Program-made: the position numbers and the translations under genes
Source of the DNA: a virus
Length of the DNA stretch: 23,789 nucleotides
Reading direction: 5' to 3' (one strand)
IMG/VR virus record: IMGVR_UViG_3300017757_000163
Location: 1 to 23,789 of that record
Notes under the pieces: model-generated
Told to the model about the DNA's origin: nothing
Databases searched by the model: none
Seen by the model: the letters and a program-made list of their open reading frames with translations, nothing else
Shown here: in pieces, positions 2,533 through 20,096 of the stretch
How the letters are laid out: the number at the start of each line of letters is the position of its first letter
Position numbering within the stretch: position 1 is the first letter of the stretch

Positions 2533-3088
2533 GCTGCCCTCCCTCATAAAATAACTTATCAAGTTCATCAACAGCTACGGCAGATCCCATATAAAACCAT
2601 TCTCCTTTACGTCCACGGCCCTCTAGGGTAAGCGCATTGTGTGCCTTACTCTCAGCCTCTCGTCTATCAGAAACTTTATAAGATTTTACAATTTCATAGT
2701 CTCTATAAGGTGATGATGTTTGATATTGTTTTAATCTATCTTTAGAATCTACAGCCATACCTACCTTAACCCAGCCCGGAAACGAAGGGTTATACATAAT
2801 ATATACTTCTCCTTCTTTAGATCTTTCATAGTTTTCTAAAGAACTAAAAGCAGCATCAGTAAAACCTTTGTATCTTCCGGGCTTGTGTAAAGGATGAGCT
2901 TGTGATATATAATTACCATCTACCCACATTCTATTAGAGTTTCTTTTTTCTTTAACAGAAGTTCTTTCTCGGATGTGTCCCCCAGTATGGATACTGGAGC
3001 CATCTTCGGGGTAGTAATACCACCAATCCCCATCCTCAAAAACATGCTTACCTGTTCTAGTGTGTTTCTGACCAGTTGCTTCCGACAT
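2519..3088 (-). CDS. T5orf172 / GIY-YIG-like nuclease domain protein
   Basis: A 189-residue protein with a C-terminal domain (about residues 93-172) matching the T5orf172/Mug113 group related to GIY-YIG nucleases. Visible motifs are VYIMYNP, PGWVKVGMA, RLKQYQTSSP, DRREAESKAH and GEWFY. The N-terminal half is rich in aromatic and charged residues (DWWYYYPEDG) and may bind DNA. Family members include phage and mobile-element proteins that cut or bind DNA; activity here is unproven. The frame opens at 3100, but ATG 3088 has GGAG six bases upstream and is the better start. It lies between polymerase and exonuclease and overlaps them by 32 and 14 bases. It may be a captured homing-type gene that became domesticated. 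Confidence 0.8.
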   Translation of the reverse strand: MSEATGQKHTRTGKHVFEDGDWWYYYPEDGSSIHTGGHIRERTSVKEKRNSNRMWVDGNYISQAHPLHKPGRYKGFTDAAFSSLENYERSKEGEVYIMYNPSFPGWVKVGMAVDSKDRLKQYQTSSPYRDYEIVKSYKVSDRREAESKAHNALTLEGRGRKGEWFYMGSAVAVDELDKLFYEGGQLELF

Positions 3089-4805
3089 GATAATCTCCAT
3101 CTAGCGGACAGTTAAGTCCTAATTGTACACCGGCTTCTATTATAGCACCGATACCTAAGTTTCCCACAGTGTCAGCTATAGTTTCTTCTGCTTCGACCTG
3201 CCATTCATCGTGGACATTGGCGACAACAGAAGCATCTAAATCTTTTATTTTGTCTGAAAAAATAATTAAAGCTTTCTTCATAACAATAGCACCGGCACTT
3301 TGCAACAATGTATTCAAAGCTGAATGCTCACTGCGAACAATAAGCTTGCGACCATCAATACCTTTTATGTATCCTTTCTTGGATGCTCTTCCAACTTTAT
3401 CTTTAAGAGATTTGAATGATGGAAGATTATCGAAGAAAGATTTTCTAAGTCTTGCACCAACGTCCCTACCTCCTCCAGCCACGCTTCCAAGTTTAGGATC
3501 TCCTGCTCCGTATAAGAGGGCATATATAAATGTCTTTGCCTGATTTCTAGATTCAAGTCCTGCAAGCTTTTGGTTAGCTGTGTGGACATCTCCGTTAATG
3601 ATTTCATTTGTGTACTCCTGATCGTCCATATAATGTGCAAGCATTCGCAACTCAAGACCACTAGCATCAATACCAACAAGCTTGTAGCCTTCGGGGACAG
3701 TCCAACAAGCCCGACATTCCTTACCGTACTCAGAAGATAAGCTAGGAACTTGGGCCATGTTGGGACTGTTGTGTGTCATCCGTCCTGTAATAGTACCGTT
3801 AGAATTTATATATCCCCTTACTCTTGAGTCATCGTCACACTCTTTTAACCACGAAGTTATAGAAGCTAAACGCTTTTGTAACATTAAGTATCTTGAGATC
3901 AATTGTGCTTGAGGTATATTTTTTATTTTATTTAGTACACTTTCATTAACGATAGGTTGTCCTGTTGGTGTAAACTTTTTTGGTTTCCAACCAAACTCTT
4001 GTAAGTACTCACCTATTTGTTTTCTTGATCCAAGATTGAAAGGATGAGACATAACTCTTTTAAGTTTTTTATTACCACATATTTCGACATACTCGTCATC
4101 GGATAGTCTTACTCTTTTATTTAACTCTCGGCACTTAGCAAACTTAGATACGGCTCCATCTGCATTGTAAGCGATACGAAGAGTGAACACTTCTTTTTTA
4201 GGCTTGAATACTTTATGTACTTCACGCTTAACATCTTCAAGCTCTTCTTCAAACTTAGCTTCTAAAGTCATGGCATATTTTCTATCAAGAAGTATACCTT
4301 TATTCCTTTGATCATCTATTAATTTGTAAGCTTCGTGTTCTATTTCTACCGACAAAGCAGAGAAACCTTTGCTTTCTCTTTTAAGATATTCGTAAACCTT
4401 AGCGTTCACCATCACGTCATTGATACAATACTTCATCATCTCAGGTGAGTACTCATCAAATTCTACATGTTCTGTTTTCCTATGACCAATCCTAAAGCCC
4501 CAAGACTTTAAGCTATGGCTACCCTCGCGGGTAGGATTAAGAAGACGAGAAAGAATTAATGTATCTCTAAGAATACAATTTTCTGACAGGTCTACACCAT
4601 AAAGTTTTTGTATTGCAGGGACATCGAAACCTATAATGTTATGTCCAATAAGTTTGTCGGCAGTAGACAAAAAAGCTACACCCTCTTCTAGATGATCAGG
4701 ATCAAAGGTGTGTACCTTTTGAGTATCTACATCATAAGCAACAATACACCATGCTTTTGTATAATCTAGACCATCTGTTTCAATATCAAATACTAAATTT
4801 AAAAT
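3057..4805 (-). CDS. Family A DNA polymerase with 3'-5' exonuclease, T7 gp5-like
   Basis: The replicative polymerase, 582 residues if started at the ATT codon at 4805-4803. Exonuclease motif I (FDIETDG, residues 6-12), motif II (GHNIIGFD) and motif III (YCINDV) are present. In the polymerase domain, motif A is GIDASGLELR (D380), motif B is RNQAKTFIYALLYG (R420, K424, Y428) and motif C is VHDE (H532-D533-E534). Tyrosine stands at the position equivalent to E. coli Pol I F762, as in T7 polymerase. There is no ATG, GTG or TTG in frame before 4670, and starting there would delete exonuclease motif I. The ATT overlaps the helicase TAA stop and has GAGG ten bases upstream. The length then fits phage relatives (about 580-590 residues). 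Confidence 0.93.
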   Translation of the reverse strand: MLNLVFDIETDGLDYTKAWCIVAYDVDTQKVHTFDPDHLEEGVAFLSTADKLIGHNIIGFDVPAIQKLYGVDLSENCILRDTLILSRLLNPTREGSHSLKSWGFRIGHRKTEHVEFDEYSPEMMKYCINDVMVNAKVYEYLKRESKGFSALSVEIEHEAYKLIDDQRNKGILLDRKYAMTLEAKFEEELEDVKREVHKVFKPKKEVFTLRIAYNADGAVSKFAKCRELNKRVRLSDDEYVEICGNKKLKRVMSHPFNLGSRKQIGEYLQEFGWKPKKFTPTGQPIVNESVLNKIKNIPQAQLISRYLMLQKRLASITSWLKECDDDSRVRGYINSNGTITGRMTHNSPNMAQVPSLSSEYGKECRACWTVPEGYKLVGIDASGLELRMLAHYMDDQEYTNEIINGDVHTANQKLAGLESRNQAKTFIYALLYGAGDPKLGSVAGGGRDVGARLRKSFFDNLPSFKSLKDKVGRASKKGYIKGIDGRKLIVRSEHSALNTLLQSAGAIVMKKALIIFSDKIKDLDASVVANVHDEWQVEAEETIADTVGNLGIGAIIEAGVQLGLNCPLDGDYHVGSNWSETH

Positions 4806-7195: not shown

Positions 7196-7224
7196 ATTAT
7201 ACATTGAGTAAGGAATCATGTCAA
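7196..7224 (-). promoter_or_regulatory. Consensus sigma70 promoter for SSB
   Basis: On the minus strand TTGACA (7224-7219) and TATAAT (7201-7196) are separated by exactly 17 bases, a perfect match to the sigma70 consensus. The start of transcription should fall near 7189, about 25 bases before the SSB ATG. The -35 box overlaps the stop codon of the preceding gene. Confidence 0.9.
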
Positions 7225-7732: not shown

Positions 7733-7910
7733 TGACATCCTCCAGTTGGGTTTTCAAATAAAGTCTAACAAAAGATTCAGGAAATTCCTCGCCATGTTTT
7801 AACATTAAGTGCAGCGCATCTTCTTGCATTTCATCACTGACATCTTCAAACCCACAATAAATAGTGGAGTAATAAAGAATATGATTACACATGTCTATAA
7901 GGTTTTGCAT
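7719..7910 (-). CDS. Hypothetical protein, 63 aa
   Basis: An unrecognised 63-residue acidic protein, predicted to be mostly helical (a segment around residues 23-40 with DEMQEDALHLMLKHG). It starts at the ATG at 7910 in a TAATG overlap with the HTH gene before it, with GAGG about nine bases upstream. There is no membrane segment or motif. It forms part of the small-gene run. Confidence 0.65.
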   Translation of the reverse strand: MQNLIDMCNHILYYSTIYCGFEDVSDEMQEDALHLMLKHGEEFPESFVRLYLKTQLEDVNECY

Positions 7911-8143
7911 TAAGGATCGCCTCTATCTATACCTGAGTTTTTCACAATACGATTAACAGTGGAGGCAGCAAGATTTAATTTATTACAAATTTTAACTTGG
8001 CGATACCCTTCCCTGTGTAGTTTTAAAACACGAACAGTATTTACTGTAGGTGAGGTCTGTCTTCCGATAGGCCAGTACCTATTGATAAATATGTTATCAA
8101 GATTACGTTGACAATTAATAGCTTTATAAAACATTGAACTCAC
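7910..8143 (-). CDS. Small helix-turn-helix protein
   Basis: A 77-residue protein whose residues 34-70 form a clear helix-turn-helix of the resolvase/transposase type: TVRVLKLHREGYRQVKICN followed by LAASTVNRIVKNSG. No catalytic recombinase domain is attached, so it is likely a DNA-binding regulator rather than an enzyme; the binding site is unknown. It starts at GTG 8143 with AAGGA six bases upstream and overlaps the previous stop by four bases. It is the only small gene of this cluster with a recognisable fold and is the best candidate in the left arm for a transcription regulator of the phage promoters. Confidence 0.75.
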   Translation of the reverse strand: MSSMFYKAINCQRNLDNIFINRYWPIGRQTSPTVNTVRVLKLHREGYRQVKICNKLNLAASTVNRIVKNSGIDRGDP

Positions 8144-9975: not shown

Positions 9976-10025
9976 CCCTAGAAAAACTAGGAAGGTCGTA
10001 AGACCTCCTTCCTAGTTTTCTAGGG
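9976..10025. repeat. Bulged hairpin with GTCGTAAGAC apex, copy 1
   Basis: An inverted repeat with a 22-base left arm (9976-9997), a GTAA loop and a 24-base right arm (10002-10025). The right arm carries an extra TCC triplet near the apex, and the left arm has one extra A. The leftward transcript from the promoter at 10029-10057 would begin at its edge, placing the hairpin at the mRNA 5' end. It shares apex and bulge with the hairpins at 11061-11113 and 12050-12120. Confidence 0.85.
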
Positions 10026-11047: not shown

Positions 11048-11060
11048 ATTATCCTCCTGT

Positions 11061-11113
11061 TCCCTTTTTAATCTTTAGAGGTCGTAAGACCTCCTCTAAA
11101 GATTAAAAAGGGA
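11061..11113. repeat. Bulged hairpin with GTCGTAAGAC apex, copy 2
   Basis: An inverted repeat with a 23-base left arm (11061-11083), a GTAA loop and a 26-base right arm (11088-11113) that differs only by an inserted TCC triplet next to the apex. The stem sequence differs from copies 1 and 3, but the apex and bulge are kept. The base of the stem overlaps the terminator at 11105-11125, so on the leftward RNA the two compete for the same UCCC and U-run. Confidence 0.88.
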
Positions 11114-11125
11114 GCCGAAGCTCCC
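11105..11125 (-). terminator. Rho-independent terminator with UUCG loop
   Basis: On the minus strand GGGAGC, TTCG, GCTCCC and then five Ts: a six-base stem with a stable tetraloop and a U-tail. It ends or attenuates transcription coming from the 11221-12001 genes before the 11047 gene. Confidence 0.82.
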
Positions 11126-11498: not shown

Positions 11499-11588
11499 CT
11501 AAGAAAAAATTACAATAATGAATGGGGTCAGCGGAGCTGCTAATAGTGCAACCACTGGTATCCAAATATCTAAATTATATTTATCCAT
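11499..11588 (-). CDS. Very small membrane peptide, 29 aa
   Basis: A 29-residue frame from the ATG at 11588 to TAG at 11499. GGAG lies five bases before the ATG, and the stop codon overlaps the ribosome site of the next gene. After a short polar start (MDKYNLD) the rest is one hydrophobic stretch (IWIPVVALLAAP, then FIIVIFS) long enough for a single membrane helix with a proline kink. Such tiny early membrane proteins in phages can affect the host envelope or exclude other phages; here this is only inference. Spacing on both sides argues strongly that it is translated. Confidence 0.65.
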   Translation of the reverse strand: MDKYNLDIWIPVVALLAAPLTPFIIVIFS

Positions 11589-11597
11589 AAAAACTCC

Positions 11598-11617
11598 AAA
11601 AGCCCCCCGAAGGGGGC
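11598..11617 (-). terminator. Rho-independent terminator with UUCG loop
   Basis: On the minus strand GCCCCC, TTCG, GGGGGC and then TTTT. It directly follows the stop of the 124-residue gene and should limit readthrough into the small membrane peptide gene, whose ribosome site begins just after the T-run. Confidence 0.82.
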
Positions 11618-11626
11618 CAAGTTAAA

Positions 11627-12001
11627 TTAGATCATTCCGAGATCAGCGGCAGTCGCAAGACGAGGAGCCGAAGAGGTTTTAAAGTTCTTTGACTGCTTTG
11701 GATTTGCAGTGATTTTAACTTCTTTGTTGGATTTCAAGTCATCAGTTCGGAGAACTTTGATATACTTCGACGCAGCGGAAGTCTTACCGTTGATTTTTTT
11801 CACCGAAAACAATTTGTTGATATCCCCAGCCAAAGGCTGTCCTTCGTGAACCGACTTGATCGAAGCCCCAAAGCGGGCTTTGAGTTTATTAAACTCAAAC
11901 TTCTTGAGGTCATTCTCACCGATGAATTTATATGCCAAAGTCGCAGCACAGGCATAGATCGCTTTGTCGGTCGCAGGTTTTGTCAAATCATACTTAGCCA
12001 T
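11627..12001 (-). CDS. Basic hypothetical protein, first gene of the leftward arm
   Basis: An unrecognised 124-residue protein, rich in lysine and alanine and basic overall. The N-terminal half looks helical (DKAIYACAATLAYKFIG, then LKKFEFNKLKARFGASI); the C-terminal half is basic and low in complexity (TANPKQSKNFKTSSAPR), suggesting a disordered nucleic-acid-binding tail. It is the first gene after the strong leftward promoter at 12712-12740, so it should be made very early and in quantity; a host-takeover or DNA-binding role is inference. Its own terminator follows. The ATG has only a weak GGGA upstream, held in the loop of a small hairpin (12002-12017, AATCG/CGATT) that touches the start codon. 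Confidence 0.78.
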   Translation of the reverse strand: MAKYDLTKPATDKAIYACAATLAYKFIGENDLKKFEFNKLKARFGASIKSVHEGQPLAGDINKLFSVKKINGKTSAASKYIKVLRTDDLKSNKEVKITANPKQSKNFKTSSAPRLATAADLGMI

Positions 12002-12049
12002 AATCGTTTTCCCGATTGTGTAATTTTTCGTCGAGCCGAAGCCCTTCCT

Positions 12050-12120
12050 AGGTTTGACTATCTTTAAAATCTTCAGAAGTCGTAAGACTTCTTCTGAAGA
12101 TTTTAAAGATAGTCAAACCT
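12050..12120. repeat. Bulged hairpin with GTCGTAAGAC apex, copy 3
   Basis: The largest inverted repeat: a 32-base left arm (12050-12081), a GTAA loop and a 35-base right arm (12086-12120). The arms match perfectly except for one extra triplet beside the apex in the right arm, the same place as in the copies at 9976 and 11061. It lies 48 bases upstream of the start of the 11627-12001 gene. Confidence 0.9.
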
Positions 12121-12122
12121 TA

Positions 12123-12498
12123 TCCACCTAGTCCTATTAAGCCTAAGAAGGCTTAATAGGACTAGGTGGAAATGTAAAAGACCCCTTGGGTCTTTTAAAC
12201 TTTGGAGTCTGTTAGCTCCTCTTAGGAGGAGCTAGATGGACTTGGCAGCTTGGGAGTTAAATAGCTTTCAAGTTCTTGAAAGCTATAAAGAACTTTGAAG
12301 TTTAGAATAAACTTCAAAGACTAAAAAGACTTCAGTTTACTTTGTAAACTAGAAGTCTTTAAAATTCTCTGGAGGGTTCAGCCTCTAAAGTCTTCTTAGA
12401 CTTTAGAGTCTGGGAGGGATCTGCTTTAAAGTCTCTAGAGACTTTAAAGTATGCGCGGAAGAATAATGGAGTTTTCCAAGTTCTTTAGAGAACTTGGA
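12123..12498. repeat. Tandem array of nine inverted repeats
   Basis: Nine palindromes stand one after another: 12123-12170 (22-base perfect arms, AAGA loop), 12175-12197 (10-base arms), 12213-12234 (9, TTAG loop), 12261-12286 (12), 12293-12319 (12, GAA loop), 12325-12360 (16, one bulge), 12383-12408 (11), 12424-12449 (perfect 26-base palindrome) and 12475-12498 (10, TTAG loop). Stem sequences differ from one to the next, though words such as AAAGTCT and CTTTGAAG recur. With 12050-12120, more than half of the bases here are in stems. No reading frame explains them. Confidence 0.88.
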
Positions 12499-12557
12499 GG
12501 GGCCGGGCAGGAGGCCATACCCCCTACCCCCTATATATACTAAATCATATACATTTT

Positions 12558-12659
12558 GAACTGAAAGTGATGTTAACCAGTTTGGAAGGGTCTTCAAAGT
12601 CTCCACAACCCCCATATGAGCCAAAAGTAGTGTGTACCAGTTTGGGCGGGTCTTCAAAG
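12558..12659. repeat. Two-copy direct repeat, 60-base period
   Basis: Copies at 12558-12599 and 12618-12659 share most of 42 bases, including ACCAGTTTGG, two variable bases and GGGTCTTCAAAG. The second copy is followed by a further CTTCAAAG, and its end forms a small palindrome (12649-12662). Such repeats upstream of a promoter often bind a regulator or a replication protein. Confidence 0.85.
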
Positions 12660-12711
12660 ACCTTCAAAGAAGGGAGATATATATAGATATAGCCCCGGTG
12701 GGTCTATAAAT

Positions 12712-12740
12712 ATTATAGAGTTAATTTAGAGATTTGTCAA
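12712..12740 (-). promoter_or_regulatory. Consensus leftward promoter of the early arm
   Basis: On the minus strand TTGACA (12740-12735), a 17-base spacer and TATAAT (12717-12712), a perfect sigma70 consensus. Transcription should start near 12705 and run through the repeats and hairpins to the gene at 12001, giving a leader of about 700 bases. Confidence 0.9.
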
Positions 12741-12759
12741 GAAAAAACTTGACAAATCT
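12730..12759. repeat. Palindrome joining the two divergent -35 boxes
   Basis: Twelve-base perfect arms (12730-12741 and 12748-12759) around six As. Each arm contains a TTGACA -35 box, one facing each way, so one dyad element serves both promoters. Confidence 0.9.
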
Positions 12760-12777
12760 GTAAACTACCTCTATAAT
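12749..12777 (+). promoter_or_regulatory. Consensus rightward promoter of the structural arm
   Basis: TTGACA (12749-12754), a 17-base spacer and TATAAT (12772-12777), a perfect sigma70 consensus. The usual six-base discriminator puts the first transcribed base at 12784, the A of the small terminase ATG. Confidence 0.9.
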
Positions 12778-12783
12778 AAAACA

Positions 12784-13167
12784 ATGAAAAAAGAATTGAC
12801 AACGAAACAACAGACTTTCTTAGATTATTTAGTCGAGACAGGAGGTGATCCAAAGCAAGCAGCAGATTTAGCAGGCTATGCTCCTAACACTCATTGGCAA
12901 GTAACTAAAGCCTTAAAAAATGAAATAATAGATCTAGCCTCTAATATTCTAGCTCAATCTGCACCTAAAGCTGCCATGAAGCTTGTGCAAGTTATGGAGT
13001 CTGAAACACCTATGCCTCAAGTCAATGTAAGACTACAGGCAGCCCAAACGATTTTAGATCGCACAGGGCTAGGAAAAGCAGACAAACTAGATGTCAGTCA
13101 TAAGGTAGAAGGAGGGATTTTTGTGCTACCCGCTAAAGAAGAGGTAGTAATTAATGTTGAAACGTAG
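12784..13167 (+). CDS. Terminase small subunit
   Basis: A 127-residue protein with the features of small terminase subunits, which recognise phage DNA and load it on the large terminase for packaging. The N-terminal region (residues 5-33: LTTKQQTFLDYLVETGGD, then AADLAGYA) is a helix-turn-helix of the terminase type. The middle is helical (ILAQSAPKAAMKLVQVM, then RLQAAQTILDRTG), as needed for ring assembly. The C-terminal HKVEGGIFVLP matches the end seen in relatives and may contact the large subunit. The ATG at 12784 has no Shine-Dalgarno and coincides with the predicted transcription start. It overlaps the next gene by 14 bases and is followed by the large terminase. Confidence 0.85.
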   Translation: MKKELTTKQQTFLDYLVETGGDPKQAADLAGYAPNTHWQVTKALKNEIIDLASNILAQSAPKAAMKLVQVMESETPMPQVNVRLQAAQTILDRTGLGKADKLDVSHKVEGGIFVLPAKEEVVINVET

Positions 13168-19063: not shown

Positions 19064-20053
19064 ATGGCTTATAATGTAAGTGATCAATTTTTTGAACCGT
19101 CTACAGATACCGATGCTAACTTTGGTAACTCTGTATCAGGACAAACTAACTCGTTTTTCCTACCTAAAGTTTATTCCAAGCAGGTACTAAACTTTTTCCG
19201 TAAGGCTTCTGTGATTGAAGGTATTACGAACACTGACTATGCGGGTGAAATTGCAGCATTCGGTGATAGTGTACGAATCATCAAAGAGCCTGAAATTACT
19301 GTTTATCAGTATGAGCGTGGTCAAGATGTAACGCAAACTAAGTTGACTGACCAAGAAGTAACTCTGGTTGTTGACACTGCTAACGCATTTAAGTTTATCG
19401 TAGATGACATTGAAACTAACATGTCTCACGTTAACTTCCGTGACGTTGCTACGTCTTCAGCAGCTTACTCTTTGCGTGATGCTTTTGACGCAGGTGTACT
19501 AGCTACTATGTTTGCTGGTGTTCCAGATGCATCCCCAAATCATAGCATGGGTACGGACAATGCTACTGATATTGCTGCTGGTACTTTTGATGGTACTGGT
19601 AACTTGGACATTGGTTTTGCTGCTTCTGAGCATGATCCTATTGATGTGATGGCACGTATGGCACGTTTGCTAGACGAGCAAAACATCCCAGAAGAAGGAC
19701 GCTGGTTCGTAGCAAATCCTGAGTTTTATGAAGTGCTTGCACAAAGCTCTTCTAAGCTCTTGTCAGTAGACTTCAACGCAGGCCAAGGCTCAATCCGTAA
19801 TGGTTTGGTAAGCTCTGGCAAGCTTCGTGGTTTCGATATGTACAAGTCAAACAACATTGCTGCAACGTCTAACGCTGCTGGTAAGTGCTTGGCTGGTCAC
19901 ATGTCTTCTACGGCTACGGCTCAAACTATTACCAGCACTGAAGTGATCCGTGATCCTTCAAGCTTCGGTGATATTGTACGTGGTCTACACGTTTACGGTG
20001 CTAAGGTACTGCGTCCAGAAGCTCTGGTTGCAGCCTTTTACGGTATCGACTAG
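19064..20053 (+). CDS. Major capsid protein
   Basis: A 329-residue protein, the size of T7-like capsid proteins, expected to have the HK97 fold and form the head shell. Typical segments are SFFLPKVYSKQVLNFFRK (about 30-47), GEIAAFGDSVRIIKEPEITV (about 61-80), the FKFIVDDIE strand, the RDAFDAGVLATMF helix, EGRWFVANPEFYEVL (about 216-230), and the C-terminal RGLHVYGAKVLRPEALVAAF. Codon choice is cleaner and more uniform than in neighbouring genes, as expected for the most abundant product. AGGAG lies about nine bases upstream of the ATG, and a strong terminator follows the stop. Confidence 0.93.
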   Translation: MAYNVSDQFFEPSTDTDANFGNSVSGQTNSFFLPKVYSKQVLNFFRKASVIEGITNTDYAGEIAAFGDSVRIIKEPEITVYQYERGQDVTQTKLTDQEVTLVVDTANAFKFIVDDIETNMSHVNFRDVATSSAAYSLRDAFDAGVLATMFAGVPDASPNHSMGTDNATDIAAGTFDGTGNLDIGFAASEHDPIDVMARMARLLDEQNIPEEGRWFVANPEFYEVLAQSSSKLLSVDFNAGQGSIRNGLVSSGKLRGFDMYKSNNIAATSNAAGKCLAGHMSSTATAQTITSTEVIRDPSSFGDIVRGLHVYGAKVLRPEALVAAFYGID

Positions 20054-20065
20054 ACCTTTTAGGTG

Positions 20066-20096
20066 GGGGCTGCTTCGGTGGCCCCTTTCCTTTTTT
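20066..20096 (+). terminator. Rho-independent terminator after the capsid gene
   Basis: An eight-pair stem GGGGCTGC / GTGGCCCC (with two G-U pairs) around a TTCG loop, followed by TTTCCTTTTTT. It should give capsid mRNA a stable end and reduce transcription of the tail genes. Confidence 0.88.

Follow-up and report, generated by a model that had tools for sequence, protein, structure and literature searches.

In phage lambda, the PR and PRM promoters can both be occupied, with interference, and their spacing is nearly the same as that of the divergent promoter pair described below. Bidirectional promoters of E. coli share one −10 element, and the starts lie 10–23 bp apart in the five that were tested, according to the accessible part of PMC12825309; in pLS20, the Pc and Pr core promoters overlap and RcoLS20 binds there, as described in the accessible text of PMC4207663. 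With regard to hairpins, the available portion of PMC8794818 puts forward template switching as the process that creates perfect stems, with loop inversion and compensatory stem change among the footprints of such switching during replication. Few marine viruses are as common as the SAR11 phages; in the literature searched, no report of promoter mapping was found for the SAR11 phage group considered here, nor any description of the promoter pair or leader presented below. The words "promoter", "terminator" and "hairpin" are absent from the main text of PMC9038755, and the subject of PMC12753301, in its accessible part, is other pelagiphage types.

The stretch of DNA analysed here (the window) comprises 23,789 bases and makes up an entire IMG/VR record. 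Its terL is 67.5% identical to that of HTVC115P, 65.2% to that of HTVC103P and 48.4% to that of HMO-2011; judged by its sequence, the window is a marine phage of the HTVC115P branch of the HMO-2011-related pelagiphages, and its order terS-terL-portal matches that of Pelagibacter phage HTVC115P. An inverted repeat that contains two divergent promoters (the dyad) occupies the fork between early and replication genes on the left and terminase and structural genes on the right. The leftward genes include DUF932, GP88, an ssb-like gene and a primase-helicase, in addition to ORF 3057–4670, a probable DNA polymerase when read by its position as in HTVC115P. Rightward from the dyad come terS, terL, which was assigned by its matches, and an ORF that lies at the place of the HTVC115P portal gene. 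Further along this strand, a strong terminator-like hairpin at 20065–20086 (+) could end the rightward transcript after ORF 19064–20053. The cumulative GC skew of the window has its minimum at 11500–12500, which is consistent with an origin; the gene orientations also give it.

Both promoters at the fork are exactly TTGACA-17-TATAAT and point away from each other, as the original prediction had it (Table 1). The eight bases that it counted between the −35 hexamers were confirmed (GAAAAAAC), and the predicted starts are 79 bp from each other. Perfect sites of this kind number three in the window, against a mean of 0.007 in 300 dinucleotide shuffles of the same stretch, the highest count in any shuffle being one. 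At the 9-of-12 level there is no overall enrichment of promoter-like sites (57, against 48.3 ± 8.0 expected), so that the distinctive thing is the perfect sites. The third of these, outside the dyad, recurs in G001 and G013, where its spacer is unchanged or nearly so.

Table 1. Coordinates in the window of the promoter pair, the dyad, terS and the elements of the leftward leader.
Feature	Position	Strand	Remarks
Leftward consensus promoter, TTGACA-17-TATAAT	12712..12740	−	predicted +1 ~12705
Rightward consensus promoter, TTGACA-17-TATAAT	12749..12777	+	predicted +1 ~12784
Third consensus promoter, outside the dyad	7196..7224	−	upstream of ssb-like gene
Inverted repeat spanning both promoters, around AAAAAA	12711..12778		arms 12711-12741/12748-12778
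Terminase small subunit gene (terS)	12784..13167	+	ATG on predicted +1
Predicted non-coding leader of leftward transcript	12002..12705	−	~700 nt, hyper-structured
Conserved CCC-ACC-GGGG motif, possible 5'-terminal hairpin	12689..12707	−	5' end of leftward transcript
Tandem near-perfect hairpin array	12050..12498		9-10 hairpins, within leftward leader
Array hairpin	12050-12120		30 bp stem
Array hairpin	12123-12170		22 bp stem
Further array hairpins	12173-12199, 12213-12234, 12261-12286, 12293-12319		
Further array hairpins	12320-12365, 12379-12412, 12422-12451, 12475-12498		
Bulged hairpin	12050..12120	−	fixed apical GTCTTACGAC, tandem 3-base repeat on 5' side
Further bulged-hairpin copies	11057-11117, 9983-10019	−	

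The pair is widespread among relatives of the window. In a sample of 80 IMG/VR loci around terL, with the pair counted as present when each promoter matches at least 11 of 12 positions, it lies between the early and structural genes in 74, a count that, like all those across these phylogenetically dependent relatives, is not one of independent cases. At this position one further locus, L029, carries a pair that is weaker, and in the other five the contig ends before the site, as judged from match coordinates. The −35 element is TTGACA in 148 of the 148 arms of the 74 loci; the −10 element is TATAAT in 89, TATACT in 58 and TACAAT in one; and the spacer is 17 bases long in 141. The distance between the −35 boxes of these 74 relatives ranges from 7 to 49 bases, and in the window's own clade this gap is constant at 8. 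All 14 long records chosen (37–53 kb) contain the pair, which supplies the sole matches to TTGACA-N16-18-TATAMT in six of them and is joined by one to three others in the remaining eight; the reversed pattern, which served as a control over the same 14 records, has two matches in all. Four isolates have the pair: HTVC115P (gap 17), HTVC103P and HTVC104P (gap 19) and HTVC033P (gap 40). No pair was found near terL in HMO-2011, CRP-1 and CRP-13, where the genes upstream of terL run nearly all in the same direction. The presence of the pair in 74 of the 80 relatives, together with its standing as the near-sole consensus sites of the long records, points to a conserved bidirectional master promoter. 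The arrangement itself is observed, and by its activity the site would be the master promoter of one branch of the HMO-2011-related pelagiphages. The idea that early and structural genes are governed from one site is thereby borne out to the extent that a conserved control point lies between the two gene sets.

The explanation that we favour and consider reasonably probable, on the strength of sequence comparison, combines conserved back-to-back master promoters, a leaderless terS mRNA, a leader of about 700 nt on the opposite transcript, and a dyad symmetry that comes from quasi-palindrome correction. Two separate strong promoters of the host-sigma70 type would stand back to back, the leftward one serving the early and replication genes and the rightward one the terminase and structural genes; polymerases may interfere at the 8-base gap, and a built-in either/or switch would be unnecessary. 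On the rightward side, the first ATG lies 6–10 nt past the −10 element in 64 of 76 loci, and terS as annotated in HTVC115P, 103P and 104P begins 6–7 nt past it; HTVC033P has a longer leader before terS. From this spacing the terS mRNA is predicted to be leaderless, its start falling at or beside the start codon. The conserved near-perfect pair thus predicts both the early and structural transcription starts and a leaderless terS mRNA, and both are easily testable.

On the other side, the positions of promoter and genes suggest that the leftward mRNA opens with a long non-coding leader, for which an Rfam search returned no family at the gathering threshold. It folds with a z-score of −17.7 as RNA and −16.1 as DNA. 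The leaders of relatives were folded for those 65 of 76 loci that have at least 400 nt of it, and their z-scores, which come from only eight mononucleotide shuffles, are noisy, as can be seen from L041 and L042, whose MFE is identical and whose z is −5.0 and −11.9, respectively. At its 5' end the leftward transcript has a CCC-ACC-GGGG motif that is conserved in many clades, and within this motif GU counts 13 versus 0 for AC. The threshold for a 5'-terminal hairpin stem is reached in 25 of 59 leaders, compared to 9–30 of 65–68 in downstream control windows; pair counting over 54 distinct 5' ends gives 54.4% paired, a value as high as which occurs in 118 of 500 shuffles, with 2 of 500 for double-change cells. 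Early in the leader, 12557–12599 and 12617–12659 form a 43-base direct repeat (79%) that is partly conserved in the clade.

The hairpin array within the leader carries the marks of template switching in both its stems and its loops. An alignment (A1) of 16 leaders, namely 15 distinct of 20 plus L019, has changes on both sides in 34 of 109 predicted pairs. Between the close relatives L092 and L098, 119 stem pairs show six compensatory changes and no one-sided ones, at 36 changed positions of 411 outside the stems; L100 is an exception, with eight one-sided changes among 93–94 pairs when set against L101 or L102. In four of the seven hairpin families with variable loops, the loop of some members is the exact reverse complement of that of others, and five loop flips were observed against 0.74 expected, a number that none of 20,000 simulations reaches. 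The sole difference between the aligned leaders of L104 and L106 is one inverted 4-base loop, with a single other base differing between the two loci in their first 1,923 aligned bases; in the window itself, the loop of hairpin 12293–12319 is inverted relative to L086, L087 and L091. Some of the loop flips could be chimeras that arose by amplification in metagenomes. As a group, the leader hairpins document template switching in a phage with a clarity that is unusual for natural sequences.

Possession of an array depends on the clade: 14 of 15 clade leaders have 8–9 stems and the remaining one (L103) has 3, against 0–0.4 in shuffles. Among 11 leaders outside the clade, seven have 3–7 stems and four (L007, L012, L026 and L030) have none; L056, L059 and L062 combine a gap of 8 with the absence of an array and a leader z of only −2 to −7. 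A selected RNA structure was considered for the array and rejected. Were an RNA maintained on the leftward transcript, G-U should exceed A-C in the stems; the counts are 4 versus 11 in the 15 clade leaders and 13 versus 30 in 148 distinct hairpins, so that there is no wobble bias on the transcribed strand, as fits maintenance at the level of DNA. The array may nevertheless have a role as RNA, because arm correction would erase GU and AC alike.

A bulged hairpin with GTCTTACGAC at its tip, of which the window has further copies outside the array, is found at 12088, 11090 and 10004 on the − strand, each upstream of a leftward gene. In relatives of the clade, it has 12–31 stem pairs in intact, untruncated copies and is always read leftward; it contains a slippable 3–4-base repeat, is present in two to three copies in several loci, and is never inverted. 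Matches to its pattern outside the clade (L122, L125, L128–L131, L138, L140, L141 and others) have no long bulged stem and were discarded as chance. At 11110–11125, a terminator-like hairpin with a U run overlaps the bulged hairpin at 11057–11117 (− strand), its 3' arm and U run being part of the latter's 5' arm, and this shared arm makes the two structures mutually exclusive. A wider reading, which we put forward only tentatively, is that of a control and replication locus with one bidirectional master promoter, where the leader palindromes fold in vivo, owe their continued perfection to template switching and their number to selection, and where the clade-specific bulged hairpin with its GTCTTACGAC tip is the recognised element. 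If so, the palindromes could be, for example, replication start or strand-initiation structures or, alternatively, form a stable RNA with a protective or regulatory effect on early mRNA.

To return to the favoured explanation by two separate master promoters, the dyad itself would follow from two consensus promoters that face away from one another, and its surplus symmetry in the window's clade from quasi-palindrome correction, by which a strand under replication folds on itself, so that one arm serves as template for the other. The 12-base arms around six As that were originally described (AGATTTGTCAAG/CTTGACAAATCT) are exact and understate the symmetry, as the inverted repeat has arms of 31 bases each, 28 of them matching; likewise, the agreement reported for the first spacer bases (AATCT) is wider, the two 17-base spacers of the window being identical at 14 positions. 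Folded as single-stranded DNA, the dyad has a z-score of −9.4. From the compensating stems and the both-orientation loops of the adjoining leader hairpins, we infer that the promoter arms, like their neighbours, have been polished by template switching; no inverted version of the A-tract at the centre of the dyad was seen. In all probability the palindrome has its mirror symmetry incidentally, and it resembles something left behind by DNA copying rather than the switch of a regulator.

The close spacing had been interpreted as a switch, and one regulator bound to the dyad as the means of controlling both directions. Given the range of gaps in relatives, the first of these claims is unsupported as a general design; in the window's own clade, where every gap is 8, interference between RNA polymerases is possible. 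The second is likewise unsupported as a general design, since the arms are often unlike while the promoters are kept. Neither the dyad nor the 8-base gap is retained across relatives, although either should be if it were the working part. We regard it as unlikely that the spacing constitutes an either/or switch between early and structural expression, operated by RNA polymerase exclusion and tuned by a dyad regulator. Besides the constant gap of the clade, such a switch would agree with the joint variation of the −35-adjacent spacer bases in both arms (AATC/AATC versus AATG/AATG, in L019 and L021), with the competition between strong opposed promoters described in the accessible part of PMC12825309 and with the RNA polymerase switch at overlapping divergent promoters in that of PMC4207663; however, promoters of relatives stay near-perfect at any gap from 7 to 49, the arms of many relatives are alike only in the promoter elements (3–9 of 17 spacer matches), and the core promoters of the window, given the distance between their predicted starts, do not overlap. 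Within the window's clade, exclusion or a putative dyad-binding regulator is possible. Candidate regulators gave only weak HTH profile matches, and no tie to the dyad was found for the HTH ORF at 7910–8143, which had been suggested for this part. Against the favoured explanation, two perfect strong promoters alone do not account for how the structural genes would be kept back early, and a regulator or interference may be needed.

The likeness between the two arms of one genome was examined in those loci where each spacer has 17 bases (68 of 76), which leave 58 distinct pairs after removal of duplicates. Spacer identity is 8.72 of 17 within genomes versus 7.27 between them, a difference that none of 5000 permutations equals. 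A preference of the shared host RNA polymerase could alone make the two promoters of a genome alike, and the −10 variants do pair up (TATAAT/TATAAT 38, TATACT/TATACT 20, mixed 17, TACAAT/TATACT 1); yet spacer positions that are not contacted also agree within genomes, and permutation inside gap classes still gives a fraction of 0.0002, so that we find this account improbable. Arm identity falls as the gap grows (rho −0.42, p 0.001, 58 pairs), a trend that has p 0.06 after clustering of the loci at 90% and p 0.51 at 85% and is not significant at 80%; it is not relied on here because it is lost at 85% clustering. The arms of L065 match at 13 of 17 positions across a gap of 39, which short-range template switching does not predict. 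Very doubtful, finally, is an operator bound in each arm by a phage or host protein, with spacers matched per genome and changing with the regulator between clades: the excess of within-genome over between-genome similarity, which includes spacer positions 3–5 and 15–17, would suit it, but arms of the gap-27 class share 5.25 of 17 positions within genomes, no higher than between genomes of that class, no conserved arm motif was seen beyond TTGACAAA, and the variation of gap and arm sequences in relatives led us to reject it as a general explanation of the dyad.

In comparison with known systems, the pair shares with lambda PR/PRM the arrangement of two sigma70 promoters that stand back to back, some 80 bp from each other, where two transcription units diverge, as well as one transcript that is leaderless, cI from PRM in lambda and, by prediction, terS here. 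Unlike in lambda, neither tandem operators nor a gene for a repressor were recognised beside the site of the window; moreover, PRM is weak, whereas both promoters of the window are consensus. With the bidirectional promoters of E. coli, as far as the accessible part of PMC12825309 describes them, the locus has in common pseudo-symmetric DNA, divergent transcripts and a possible competition when strong, but it consists of two complete promoters with far-spaced predicted starts in place of a shared −10. The pLS20 Pc/Pr pair is likewise a divergent one, proposed in the accessible text of PMC4207663 as an RNA polymerase switch; the cores in the window are by contrast separated by the bases between their −35 hexamers, and have no known regulator. 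Finally, the compensatory stem changes and inverted loop sequences of the leader are those of the template-switch-maintained hairpins in the available portion of PMC8794818, with the difference that the latter belong to RNA genes such as rRNA, and those reported here are arrayed in tandem in the leader of a phage, beside a promoter palindrome.
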